This document shows positions 4,044-48,919 of a DNA stretch of 64,000 bases, piece after piece. Below the pieces are notes generated by a model. The model was given only the letters and a program-made list of their open reading frames with translations. It had not been told where the DNA came from and made no database searches. The DNA is from Brevundimonas sp. UBA7506. Lineage in GTDB: Bacteria > Pseudomonadota > Alphaproteobacteria > Caulobacterales > Caulobacteraceae. A program made the position numbers and the translations under genes. Each line of letters begins with the position of its first letter. Position 1 is the stretch's first letter. The DNA is taken from positions 199,476-263,475 of the forward strand of contig NZ_DLNQ01000015.1 of NCBI RefSeq assembly GCF_002479495.1, written 5' to 3'.

Positions 4044-4085
4044 GCGCTCATGTAGCGAGCCGCCGCGCGGCTCGCGCTAGCGCCC
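4044..4085 (-). repeat. Dispersed GCG-loop hairpin repeat, copy A
   Basis: Read on the minus strand this copy starts GGGCGCTA, 7 bp beyond the purH stop codon, in sense orientation to purH. It has an inner 9-bp perfect stem (GCGAGCCGC with GCGGCTCGC) around a GCG loop, and outer arms GCGCT and AGCGC. It belongs to the same family as the copies at 19051, 35382, 40458 and 47926. Confidence 0.8.
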
Positions 4086-19050: not shown

Positions 19051-19091
19051 GGTCGCTAACGCTCGCCGCGCGGCGGCTCGCTGCTTGAGCG
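19051..19091 (+). repeat. Dispersed GCG-loop hairpin repeat, copy B
   Basis: This copy begins 13 bp after the sucD stop, in sense orientation. It has a CGCTAACGCTC left part, inner stem GCCGC/GCGGC with loop GCG, and a right part CTCGCTGCTTGAGCG. The central portion is identical to copies C1 and D. Confidence 0.8.
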
Positions 19092-19193
19092 AGTTCGCCG
19101 CGCCTCCGCTCCAGTCGATGTCGGGGGTTCGGGGGCAGGGAGCGCGACCGAACGATGTTCCGGGGCGAAATTTCGCGCCCTGTGACCCTTTGA

Positions 19194-34826: not shown

Positions 34827-35381
34827 ATGACCCAGACCTCGAGCTTTCCCGACTGGCACGGCACCACCATTCTGGCGGTGCGCAAGAACGGCCGCACCGT
34901 CATCGCCGGCGACGGCCAGGTCTCTATGGGGCCGACCATCGTCAAGGGCGCGGCGCGCAAGGTGCGCACCCTGGCGGGCGGCAAGGTGCTGGCCGGTTTC
35001 GCCGGAGCCACGGCCGATGCCCTGACCCTGATCGAGCGGCTGGAGGCCAAGCTGGAGCAATACCCCGACCAGTTGGCCCGCGCCTGCGTCGAACTGGCCA
35101 AGGACTGGCGCACCGACCGCTATCTGCGTCGGCTGGAGGCCATGCTGCTGGTCGCCGACAAGGACACCATTCTGACGGTCACCGGCGTAGGCGACGTGCT
35201 GGAGCCGGAGTACGGCGTGGCCGCCGTCGGATCGGGCGGCAACTACGCCCTGGCCGCCGCCCGCGCCCTGATCGACGAAAGCAGCGAACAGGATGCCGAG
35301 CAGATCGCCCGCAAGGCCATGAAGATCGCCGCCGAAATCTGCGTCTACACCAACGGCAATCTGACCATCGAGAGTCTTTAA
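34827..35381 (+). CDS. hslV: ATP-dependent protease peptidase subunit HslV (ClpQ)
   Basis: The 184-residue proteasome-related peptidase pairs with HslU in the cytoplasm. The propeptide [12 protein letters not shown] ends in HG, before the catalytic Thr13 of [36 protein letters not shown] and ICVYTNGN mark the rest of the fold. hslV and hslU are usually adjacent; here a third, now broken gene lies between them. Three tandem hairpin repeats begin immediately after the hslV stop codon. Confidence 0.97.
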
Positions 35382-35421
35382 GGGCGCTACGCTCGCCGCG
35401 CGGCGGCTCGCTGCTTGAGCG
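35382..35421 (+). repeat. Dispersed GCG-loop hairpin repeat, copy C1
   Basis: This copy starts at the first base after the hslV stop, in sense orientation. It begins GGGCGCTA and ends GCTGCTTGAGCGG. The inner stem is GCCGC/GCGGC with loop GCG. It is the first of three tandem copies spaced about 47 bp. Confidence 0.8.
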
Positions 35422-35427
35422 GTCGTA

Positions 35428-35468
35428 GGGCGCTATCGCCCGGCTCGCGGAGCCGCGCTGCTTGAGCA
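35428..35468 (+). repeat. Dispersed GCG-loop hairpin repeat, copy C2
   Basis: This is the second tandem copy. It starts GGGCGCTATC and ends CTGCTTGAGC. The inner stem is CGGCTC with GAGCCG around loop GCG, so the stem sequence differs from C1 while pairing is kept. Confidence 0.78.
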
Positions 35469-35475
35469 GCTTATA

Positions 35476-35517
35476 GGGCGCTAACGCACGCGACGCGGTC
35501 GCGCGCTTCTTGAGCGC
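35476..35517 (+). repeat. Dispersed GCG-loop hairpin repeat, copy C3
   Basis: This is the third tandem copy. It starts GGGCGCTAACGC and ends CTTCTTGAGCGC. The inner stem is CGCGAC with GTCGCG around loop GCG, again a compensated change. About 100 bp without recognisable content follow before the next gene. Confidence 0.78.
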
Positions 35518-40457: not shown

Positions 40458-40498
40458 GGGTCGCTATGCTCGCCGCGCGGCGGCTCGCGACTTGAGTG
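40458..40498 (+). repeat. Dispersed GCG-loop hairpin repeat, copy D
   Basis: This copy starts 29 bp after the infC stop in sense orientation. It has GGGTCGCTATGC at the left, inner stem GCCGC/GCGGC with loop GCG, and GACTTGAGTGA at the right. Confidence 0.78.
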
Positions 40499-40519
40499 AG
40501 GATCTCGGATCCGGTTCAA

Positions 40520-40567: not shown

Positions 40568-40656
40568 GGGGGCGGCGCCGTAAAAGCCGCCCCTTCGCGT
40601 ACCGAACAGCCGGGCTAACAGGCATGCCTGGGCCGTTCGTTTCAGCTCCGCACTAC

Positions 40657-40686
40657 GGGCTCATGTAGCTCGCAGAGCGGTAGCCC
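40657..40686 (-). repeat. Short variant of the hairpin repeat, copy E, before rpmI
   Basis: Outer arms GGGCT and AGCCC and inner stem GCTC/GAGC enclose a 3-nt loop. On the minus strand the GGGCTACCGCTC start and ACATGAGCCC end resemble copy A. The same bases could instead form a pseudoknot with CTAC pairing to GTAG. It lies 23 bp upstream of rpmI. Confidence 0.5.
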
Positions 40687-40708
40687 ACTAAAATCAGAGA
40701 GAGTGAAA

Positions 40709-40954: not shown

Positions 40955-40998
40955 AGTCCCTCAAGCAGCGAGACCCCGCGGGTCGAGCGCTAGGGACT
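40955..40998 (-). repeat. Variant hairpin repeat, copy F, between rpmI and rplT
   Basis: Outer arms AGTCCCT and AGGGACT enclose an inner stem GACCC/GGGTC with loop GCG (minus-strand reading). The minus strand carries TAGCGCTCG and CTCGCTGCTTGAGG as in other copies. The outer stem has changed on both sides, preserving pairing. It ends 19 bp before the rplT start and covers part of the leader. Confidence 0.68.
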
Positions 40999-47053: not shown

Positions 47054-47079
47054 GGCTTCGCCCTAGTGTTTTCTTTTTG
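47047..47079 (+). terminator. Terminator overlapping the yqhA-like stop codon
   Basis: Stem CACTAGGGC with GCCCTAGTG and a TTC loop is followed by TTTTCTTTTT. The TAG stop codon is part of the left arm. It probably terminates the pheS-to-yqhA transcript. Confidence 0.92.
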
Positions 47080-47112
47080 GGGCCTATCGCGCTTACGCGC
47101 TACTTGAGGCCC
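47080..47112 (+). repeat. Dispersed hairpin repeat, variant copy G
   Basis: Outer arms GGGCCT and AGGCCC and inner stem GCGC/GCGC enclose a TTAC loop, with CTACTTGAGG at the right as in the family. It lies 26 bp after the yqhA-like stop, in sense orientation, directly behind the terminator. The outer stem is changed on both sides relative to GCGCT/AGCGC. Confidence 0.68.
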
Positions 47113-47925: not shown

Positions 47926-47968
47926 GGGGCGCTAACGCTCGCGACGCGGTCGCTCGCTGCTTGAGCGG
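47926..47968 (+). repeat. Dispersed GCG-loop hairpin repeat, copy H1
   Basis: This copy starts 8 bp after the eipA-like stop in sense orientation. It has GGGGCGCTAACGCTC at the left, inner stem GCGAC/GTCGC with loop GCG, and CTCGCTGCTTGAGCGG at the right. It is the first of two tandem copies spaced about 50 bp. Confidence 0.8.
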
Positions 47969-47975
47969 CATTTTA

Positions 47976-48018
47976 GAGCGCTAGCGTCCGCCGCGCGGCG
48001 GCGGACTGTTTGAGCGCC
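47976..48018 (+). repeat. Dispersed GCG-loop hairpin repeat, copy H2, overlapping a CDS end
   Basis: The inner 9-bp stem is GTCCGCCGC with GCGGCGGAC around loop GCG, with outer arms GCGCT and AGCGC. It overlaps the 3' end of the convergent epimerase gene and encodes that protein's last residues on the opposite strand. Confidence 0.8.
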
Positions 48019-48919
48019 TTGAGGGGTGCGCTTGCGGCGAAGGCGCCGTGAGGATGCTTTCTAGCCCCTCGCGCCAGGTCGGGTATTGGGGCCGCCAGCC
48101 CAGCTCGGCCTTGGCGCGGGCGTTCGAGAGGCGCTTGGAGTCGTTGTAGAAGCGGCGCATGGCGTCCGACACCGACGGGTCGTCCAGCGACACCTCGGGC
48201 GGCAGGGGCAGGCCCAGCCGCGCCGCCGCCCCCGCCATCACCACGTCCGCCGGGGCCGGTTCGTCGTCGGACAGGGTGTAGGCGCGGCCTGGATGGGGAC
48301 GGGCCATGGAGGCGAAGAAGCCGGCCACGGCGTCCTCGACATGGATGCGGTTGAAGACCTGACCAGGCTTCTTCACCAGCCGCGCCGTCCCGTCGCGCAG
48401 GCGGTCGATCGGCGAGCGGCCTGGTCCGTAGATGGCGGGCAGGCGGAAGATTTGCACCGTCAGCCCCATGCCGCGCCCGGCGTCCAGCCAGTCCTGCTCG
48501 GCCCGCACGCGACGTGCCCCCTCCAGGCTGGCGGCGTTCAACTCGTCGTCCTCGAAGGCCCAGCCGCCCGCCCGGTCGCCATAGACGGCGGTCGATGAGA
48601 CATAGCCGATCCAGTCGGGATAGGCCTGGACGGCGCTGATGGCCGGGATCAGGGTCTTCAGGCCCGGGCAGCCGGCGCCGTCGGGCGCAGCGGTGATCAG
48701 GATGGCCGAGGCCTCGGCGACGGCGGCCTGCAAGGCGTGGACGTCAGTGGGATCGACCGCGACGACGCCGGCGTCTGTCAGCTCTTTGCGCCGCGCCGGA
48801 TCGCGCGAGGTGGCGAGGGCGCGGTTACCCCTGCGGATCGCCTCGCGCGCCGCCTCAAGCCCCAGATAGCCGCCGCCGAAGACCAGAAGCGAAGGGGCGG
48901 CGGGGGCAGGCTGGGTCAT
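47981..48919 (-). CDS. NAD(P)-binding SDR/epimerase-like protein (YeeZ-like)
   Basis: The 312-residue extended-SDR-like protein has the nucleotide motif LLVFGGGYLGLEAAREAIRRG and WIGYVSSTAVYGDRAGGW. FRLPAIYGPGRSPIDRL and FNRIHVEDAV follow. The usual YxxxK lysine is not evident, so catalysis by the classical mechanism is uncertain. The last dozen or so residues (SRRSNSPPPRGGR) come from hairpin repeat copy H2 and look like an accidental tail. It is 18 bp downstream of sqdB on the same strand, so a two-gene unit is likely. Confidence 0.8.
   Translation of the reverse strand: MTQPAPAAPSLLVFGGGYLGLEAAREAIRRGNRALATSRDPARRKELTDAGVVAVDPTDVHALQAAVAEASAILITAAPDGAGCPGLKTLIPAISAVQAYPDWIGYVSSTAVYGDRAGGWAFEDDELNAASLEGARRVRAEQDWLDAGRGMGLTVQIFRLPAIYGPGRSPIDRLRDGTARLVKKPGQVFNRIHVEDAVAGFFASMARPHPGRAYTLSDDEPAPADVVMAGAAARLGLPLPPEVSLDDPSVSDAMRRFYNDSKRLSNARAKAELGWRPQYPTWREGLESILTAPSPQAHPSRRSNSPPPRGGR

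Follow-up and report, generated by a model that had tools for sequence, protein, structure and literature searches.

A REP-like family of two-stem hairpins in Brevundimonas: placement, distribution and possible origin

Directly behind the hslV gene of Brevundimonas sp. UBA7506, three short hairpins follow one another, and similar hairpins lie elsewhere in the same window, by which we mean the whole stretch of 64,000 nucleotides (64 kb) that was analysed. A sequence-only reading had regarded them as a selected RNA structure at the 3' ends of mRNAs, which protects or processes these ends. The question is whether the hairpins are kept as parts of transcripts or belong to a DNA element that spreads through genomes. 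We consider it probable that they form a REP-like family of short interspersed palindromes, which originated once inside the genus and spread by inserting copies, some of which were then kept for a local role. The copies share a sequence and a fold with covarying stems, are restricted to one lineage, occupy sites that are empty in relatives, lie in a few cases inside genes, form arrays and are placed behind stop codons or antisense before start codons.

The hairpins of the window and their pairing

About 11 copies of a two-stem hairpin had been announced for the window, and all 11 (A to H2) were found, with starts 0 to 2 nt from the positions given earlier. Model R1, a covariance model trained on seven copies (A, B, C2, C3, F, H1 and H2), recovers 11/11 with E-values between 1e-15 and 0.004, while the next best match in the window is partial and has an E-value of 0.017. 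In the long type, about 42 nt in length, a 5-bp outer stem encloses an inner stem with a 3-nt loop, which is joined to the outer arms by a left linker (AnC, about 3 nt) and by the right linker TGCTTG. The conserved part is the internal loop, carried by both arms as CTAnC...TGCTTGAG, and the stems are variable. Throughout the family the outer stem has 5 bp, the inner stem 4 or 9 positions and the loop mostly 3 nt. A short subfamily of 32 nt, to which E and G belong, lacks the 5-bp inner part and has a TTC-like loop. Nine of its copies, including E, served to build a second model, R2. The GCG loop that had been attributed to most copies is absent from E, G and their subfamily. On their reverse strand, some short copies contain d(GCGAAGC), a sequence known to form a very stable DNA mini-hairpin. 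Rfam covariance models gave no match in the window at gathering score, and the matches obtained by E-value in two sub-regions were all far below gathering.

Six of the copies begin shortly behind the stop codon of a gene on the same strand, as had been noticed before. Copy A (4044..4085, minus strand, long type, 63.6 bits with R1) lies in sense orientation 7 nt behind purH, and copy B (19051..19092, plus strand, long, 67.5 bits) in the same way 13 nt behind sucD. Behind hslV (34827-35381), a gene with its best match, at 91%, in Brevundimonas, C1 (35382..35422, plus, long, 57.7 bits) starts 0 nt from the stop (TTTAA); C2 (35428..35469, plus, long, 59.6 bits) and C3 (35476..35517, plus, long, 63.2 bits) follow head-to-tail after spacers of 5 and 6 nt, C3 having an inner stem unlike that of C1 and C2. 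Copy D (40459..40499, plus, long, 43.3 bits) is found 30 nt behind infC, and copy G (47079..47111, plus, short, 43.9 bits with R2) 25 nt behind a UPF0114 gene, where a terminator-like hairpin with a T tract precedes it. H1 (47927..47968, plus, long, 64.6 bits) begins 8 nt behind an EipA gene and is followed head-to-tail, after a 7-nt spacer, by H2 (47976..48017, plus, long, 63.1 bits). Two copies have another position: E (40657..40688, minus, short, 46.3 bits with R2) and F (40957..40998, minus, long, 60.1 bits with R1) lie antisense, 20 and 19 nt upstream of the starts of genes which, from their protein motifs, we take to be rpmI and rplT, respectively. The other gene names were assigned from Pfam domains. 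The CTA of H2 also constitutes the TAG stop of a minus-strand frame (47981-48919); this frame can be aligned with three relatives only from about 48060 onwards, so the gene may normally end there.

Inner stems that vary while pairing is kept were an essential part of the earlier reading, and this holds well. In the alignment of seven copies, 8 of 14 pairs have changed on both sides, the covariation score is 0.408 against 0.109±0.039 in shuffled alignments, and 88.8% of the paired cells can pair, compared to 33-47% when the structure is slid along the sequence; all five measures of covariation exceed those of all 500 shuffles and of all slid structures. For 38 copies from relatives, covariation is above all 500 shuffles and all slid structures on four measures, and the number of pair types was reached by 10 of 500 shuffles.

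Placement relative to genes and the case for an RNA at 3' ends

To follow the family outside the window, 151 copies were collected in 2.464 Mb of DNA (the window and segments of the genomes G060, G093, G044, G091, G114, G058 and G021), four weak model matches (L164:3380, L221:6711, L173:2486 and L191:14649) having been excluded by judgement. With genes predicted by a simple purpose-made ORF caller, and not by a standard program, 146 copies are intergenic, 4 are intragenic and 1 is at a segment edge. The intergenic copies comprise 47 in convergent gaps, 46 sense and 40 antisense in tandem gaps and 13 in divergent gaps. Placement was tested on four genomes (G093, G114, G058 and G021) by comparison with 500 random placements within the same gaps, and only array heads were used, that is 85 of 98 intergenic copies. 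Array followers and syntenic segments (G060, G044, G091 and one of G114, together with the window) were set aside because they would be counted repeatedly, as were intragenic and edge copies; the syntenic part of G093 was retained.

The 5' end is found within 30 nt after a same-strand stop in 42 of the 85 copies, where 5.6±2.3 are expected, a number reached in none of the 500 permutations. The 3' end is near a stop of the opposite strand in just 10 copies, again with an expectation of 5.6±2.3. Furthermore, the 5' end is 10-25 nt before an opposite start in 12 copies (expected 3.6±1.8). The stop-codon rule therefore holds beyond the window, and a second rule, antisense placement upstream of starts, exists alongside it. 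Convergent gaps are enriched (30 against 16.2 expected) and divergent gaps depleted (11 against 27.2), and in convergent gaps the end nearer to a stop is the 5' end in 32 of all 47 copies. The orientation bias seen in the window is thus real behind stop codons, where position and strand in the four genomes are not random; it does not extend to tandem gaps as a whole, in which 25 sense and 19 antisense copies do not differ and are both near expectation.

Such a strand-specific position is what would be anticipated from a structure selected in the 3' ends of mRNAs, which would also account for the covariation. As a general account of the family, we nevertheless regard this as unlikely. The similar numbers of sense and antisense copies in tandem gaps, the antisense hot spot before start codons, the intragenic copies and the arrays all speak against it. 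So does the absence of the family from the sister clade and the outgroup loci, which, like intragenic copies and arrays, is typical of mobile palindromic repeats. The kind of pairing points in the same direction. Among 1,287 pair cells from 115 distinct copies (counted after removal of 32 of the 151 copies with other lengths, of 4 duplicates and of two mid-stem positions of the long type), there are 1,230 Watson-Crick pairs, and the remainder comprises 15 G·T, 20 A·C and 22 of other kinds. When copies in tandem gaps are read on the strand of the mRNA, their mismatches are 13 G·U and 12 A·C; these numbers are small, but selection on RNA should tolerate G·U above A·C, so they give no sign of it. 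Moreover, 140 of the 151 copies lack both an extended stem and a T tract. Covariation and enrichment behind stops are thus supported from the earlier proposal, and its general role at 3' ends is not; judged from sequence, a general RNA function there is unproven. As for intrinsic termination, this was rejected as a function of the family, since only 3/151 copies have a T tract (at least 5 T among the 8 nt that follow the stem), the exception, judged by eye, being purH copies in some other species.

Conserved sites, empty sites and restriction to one lineage

A few sites have kept their copy in most of the loci compared. Copy E is present before rpmI in 31/31 loci compared, the window included, which is unusual for a purely selfish repeat. 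Between rpmI and rplT, copy F is found in 29 of these 31 loci: 23 were recognized by pattern and 6 by eye, one of the latter having an enlarged inner arm. Of the two remaining loci, that of G093 has no F and that of G098 a degenerate one. Orthologues were aligned as distinct sequences only, 23 of E and 22 of F, the F copies of G048 and G046 being excluded. In F, 109 of the 110 cells of the five inner pairs are Watson-Crick and none is GU, in spite of several different stem sequences, which suggests changes in blocks and not stepwise passage through wobble pairs. We infer that one arm was copied from the other, or that the stem was exchanged with another copy. In the outer stem of F, 4 of 6 pairs have changed on both sides, so pairing was kept at one site through speciation. 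For F overall, the covariation score is above all 500 shuffles and the number of pair types was reached by 347 of 500; two mid-stem positions never pair. E covaries less: only 2 of 9 pairs have changed in both arms, which at least as many pairs do in 303 of 500 shuffles, although the covariation score is likewise above all 500.

The constancy of E and F, their near-fixed distance from the rpmI and rplT starts and their preserved pairing could suggest that the family began as the ribosomal-protein leader of the L35-L20 operon and was copied from there to other genes. This is very improbable. Neither R1 nor R2 matches anything at the two sites in 22 element-free loci, those of four Brevundimonas genomes and 18 others, and most copies of the family are near other genes, in both orientations. 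An older hairpin around CATGCC (window 40607-40639), different from the elements, is conserved upstream of rpmI in Caulobacteraceae: the motif is found there in 22/22 element-free loci and the same hairpin exists in the window. No Rfam match was obtained for this hairpin, which is possibly the true leader of the operon. Since it is conserved while both sites are empty in the sister clade and in the outgroups, E and F appear to have been inserted late, beside an older leader. The distance between infC and rpmI is itself variable, about 2 kb in G060 (G060:C34 80882-83019) and several other species, and about 0.2-0.3 kb in the window, G044 and G091.

The third conserved site, behind purH, is occupied in 20 of 30 Brevundimonas loci (the best 30 of 57 matching genomes), 5 of them with two copies. 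All 20 are in sense orientation, as would be anticipated for a 3'-end RNA; however, the 10 loci without a copy include those of two element-free genomes, G052 and G062, which have none there. At several purH loci the flank prolongs the outer stem and T-rich DNA follows, so that, by eye, the copy is now part of a terminator-like hairpin. At these places, E, F and the purH copies may have a role in the mRNA, as far as can be seen from their position and conservation.

Other sites are occupied in some relatives and empty in others. The sucD site of copy B carries a copy in G060 and G091 and none in G093 and G114; the hslV site is occupied in G060, G093 and G091 and empty in seven other Brevundimonas loci, and a regular-expression scan of 80 hslV loci gave scattered matches that were judged by eye to be outside the family. 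The copies at G021 222575 and G114 20387 have empty counterparts at the stop codon, the former in G114, and two intragenic copies of G093 are missing from the same genes in G021. In G044, copy D is apparently a short form without the inner hairpin (by eye). Clean empty sites are few, since intergenic sequence changes rapidly over the evolutionary distances that could be compared. When the copies are considered as possible MITEs, the outer arms indeed pair, and inspection by eye of the few filled and empty pairs revealed no target-site duplication.

At an E-value of 1e-5 or better, R1 matches 117 of 121 genomes drawn from the genus; 53 candidates were scored per genome, so that copy numbers per genome are lower bounds. 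The family-wide search was made with the short model R2 alone (36 candidates per genome) and gave matches in 34 of 199 Caulobacteraceae genomes, 29 of which were already in the genus draw. The long model R1 found nothing in one genome each of Phenylobacterium, Caulobacter and Asticcacaulis. In a tree of the L35 and L20 genes of 53 genomes, a branch (96/96) separates the 31 element-bearing genomes (the window and its 30 best DNA matches, and thus not a random draw) from all the rest; the four match-free genomes of the genus draw come out as their sister group (92/95), and the 18 others fall outside. Absence in the sister clade and at the compared outgroup sites fits a single origin inside the genus, and this origin probably lies in the ancestor that all sampled Brevundimonas share, apart from a basal clade.

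Some further observations concern distribution. In the IMG/VR viral collection, 17 contig stretches (L299-L315) match the long or the short consensus pattern exactly. On the 3.3-Mb contig G114:C1, 53 of 67 listed matches are in the contig half nearest to the ends (p 2e-6), and the segments of G093 differ in copy density, which drops from 13 per 100 kb to 1. In G114, with a fork assumed from contig position 1, 41 of the 67 matches are co-oriented with it, which is not significant (p 0.09).

A possible way of spreading and known palindrome families

Flanks and arrays are informative about how the units may be mobilized. Among 123 non-array copies, positions -7 to -2 before the hairpin contain 38-54% T and position -1 is a purine in 73%; this T-rich flank is present in both gene contexts and orientations. 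The absence of a T tract that had been stated for the window therefore applies to the 3' side, where no window copy has one, while in the family the 5' side is T-rich. Of 29 neighbour pairs less than 100 bp apart, a few of which are orthologous between relatives, 25 are head-to-tail, 4 have their 3' ends facing and none has its 5' ends facing. Head-to-tail spacers range from 0 to 10 nt, with 6 or 7 nt in 17 of 25. Units within an array often differ in their inner stems, as in C1 to C3 or in H1 and H2, so these arrays are not simple recent duplications; G101 has an array of five near-identical units.

Short palindromes that are numerous, intergenic and near 3' ends are also typical of classical REPs and REPINs moved by a RAYT transposase of the Y1 type. 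For the present family this explanation is scarcely credible: the Y1_Tnp profile (RAYT/IS200), which matched positive controls (E. coli, C. vibrioides and others), is found in 3 of 121 genomes and does not track the elements, the flank profile contains no GTAG tag, and arrays are head-to-tail instead of alternating. Reverse transcriptase was rejected as a present-day driver as well, being found in 20 of the 121 genomes and again not tracking the elements. With these two sets of profiles, no mobilizing enzyme was found in the 121 genomes.

In the scenario that we favour, that of a REP-like family spreading by insertion, the unit would move as a hairpin-forming strand. A putative enzyme other than Y1, or a host process, could cut a few nucleotides from the hairpin, beside the T-rich sequence. 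Copies would survive mainly behind stop codons because reading frames and promoters are undisturbed there. Later, some might have been retained locally, ahead of rpmI and rplT as a 5' hairpin of the mRNA or, in some species, behind purH as part of a terminator-like hairpin. The compensated variation of the stems could reflect maintenance of a DNA hairpin at least as much as selection on RNA, either through repair in which one arm serves as template for the other or through block exchange between copies. Caution is needed here, as hairpin repeats may covary without any function in RNA. On the other hand, the strand-specific position of copies behind stops is sharper than random REP insertion needs, and RNA selection may contribute to it. 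For E. coli, it has been reported that REPs near stop codons lower translation.

It could also be imagined, as a tentative possibility, that the family represents a separate class of mobile palindromes. Such a class would have a T-rich 5' tag, strand-specific recognition through the asymmetric internal loop, a putative non-Y1 enzyme cutting about 6 nt from the hairpin and head-to-tail joining, and one and the same rule would steer insertions to stop codons and to antisense ribosome-binding regions. If so, the 3' ends of genes in this genus and two ribosomal-protein leaders would share one set of hairpins.

By the broad definition of REPs, as palindromes of 20-40 bp in many, mostly intergenic copies, the family belongs to them. 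A search of titles and abstract starts in the non-subscription literature found no published description of a Brevundimonas hairpin family, which is weak evidence, and the main text of PMC3733652 does not contain the name Brevundimonas. The closest likeness is with the CGTC REPs, which prevail in Alphaproteobacteria, apparently without a dedicated transposase (Di Nocera et al. 2013, PMC3733652). Both are short alphaproteobacterial palindromes with the same placement, CGTC REPs being described between unidirectional or convergent genes, often less than 20 bp from 3' ends, and sometimes inside genes (PMC3733652); for our family, neither of the two enzyme families searched tracks the elements. 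However, CGTC REPs have a stem of 8-9 bp and a loop of 4-5 nt, and head-to-tail arrays are negligible among them (PMC3733652), whereas the Brevundimonas family lacks terminal CGTC, TGTC or CCTC, has two stems around a conserved asymmetric internal loop, a mostly 3-nt terminal loop and a T-rich 5' flank, and forms such arrays. The CGTC-REP-like sequence CGTCATCCCGG occurs 7 times in one G093 segment and 1-3 times in some others (among segments of G093, G058, G021 and G091), and a second type of REP may therefore coexist in these genomes.

GTAG REPs and REPINs with their RAYTs are likewise hairpin repeats, thought to spread as mobile units (PMC3116915, PMC8266576); the present family differs by the missing GTAG tag and by the absence of a Y1 match in 118 of 121 genomes. 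With the BIMEs of E. coli it has in common regularly spaced palindromic units in clusters, but BIME units alternate in orientation (PMC2817692), and 25 of our 29 close pairs are head-to-tail, so that a head-to-head or alternating REP dimer arrangement was rejected. By description only, the hairpins can further be likened to the untagged REP-like stem-loops of M. tuberculosis, D. radiodurans, Bordetella, Brucella and Cyanobacteria, palindromes without terminal GTAG or CGTC (PMC3733652). Set beside these systems, the Brevundimonas hairpins constitute a new REP-like family that is RAYT-less, is arranged head-to-tail and shows strand-specific placement at stop codons. Its origin can be assigned to one genus, and this, together with an element-free sister clade, a near-constant spacing and a strand rule, makes the spread of REPs without a transposase testable in cultivable bacteria.
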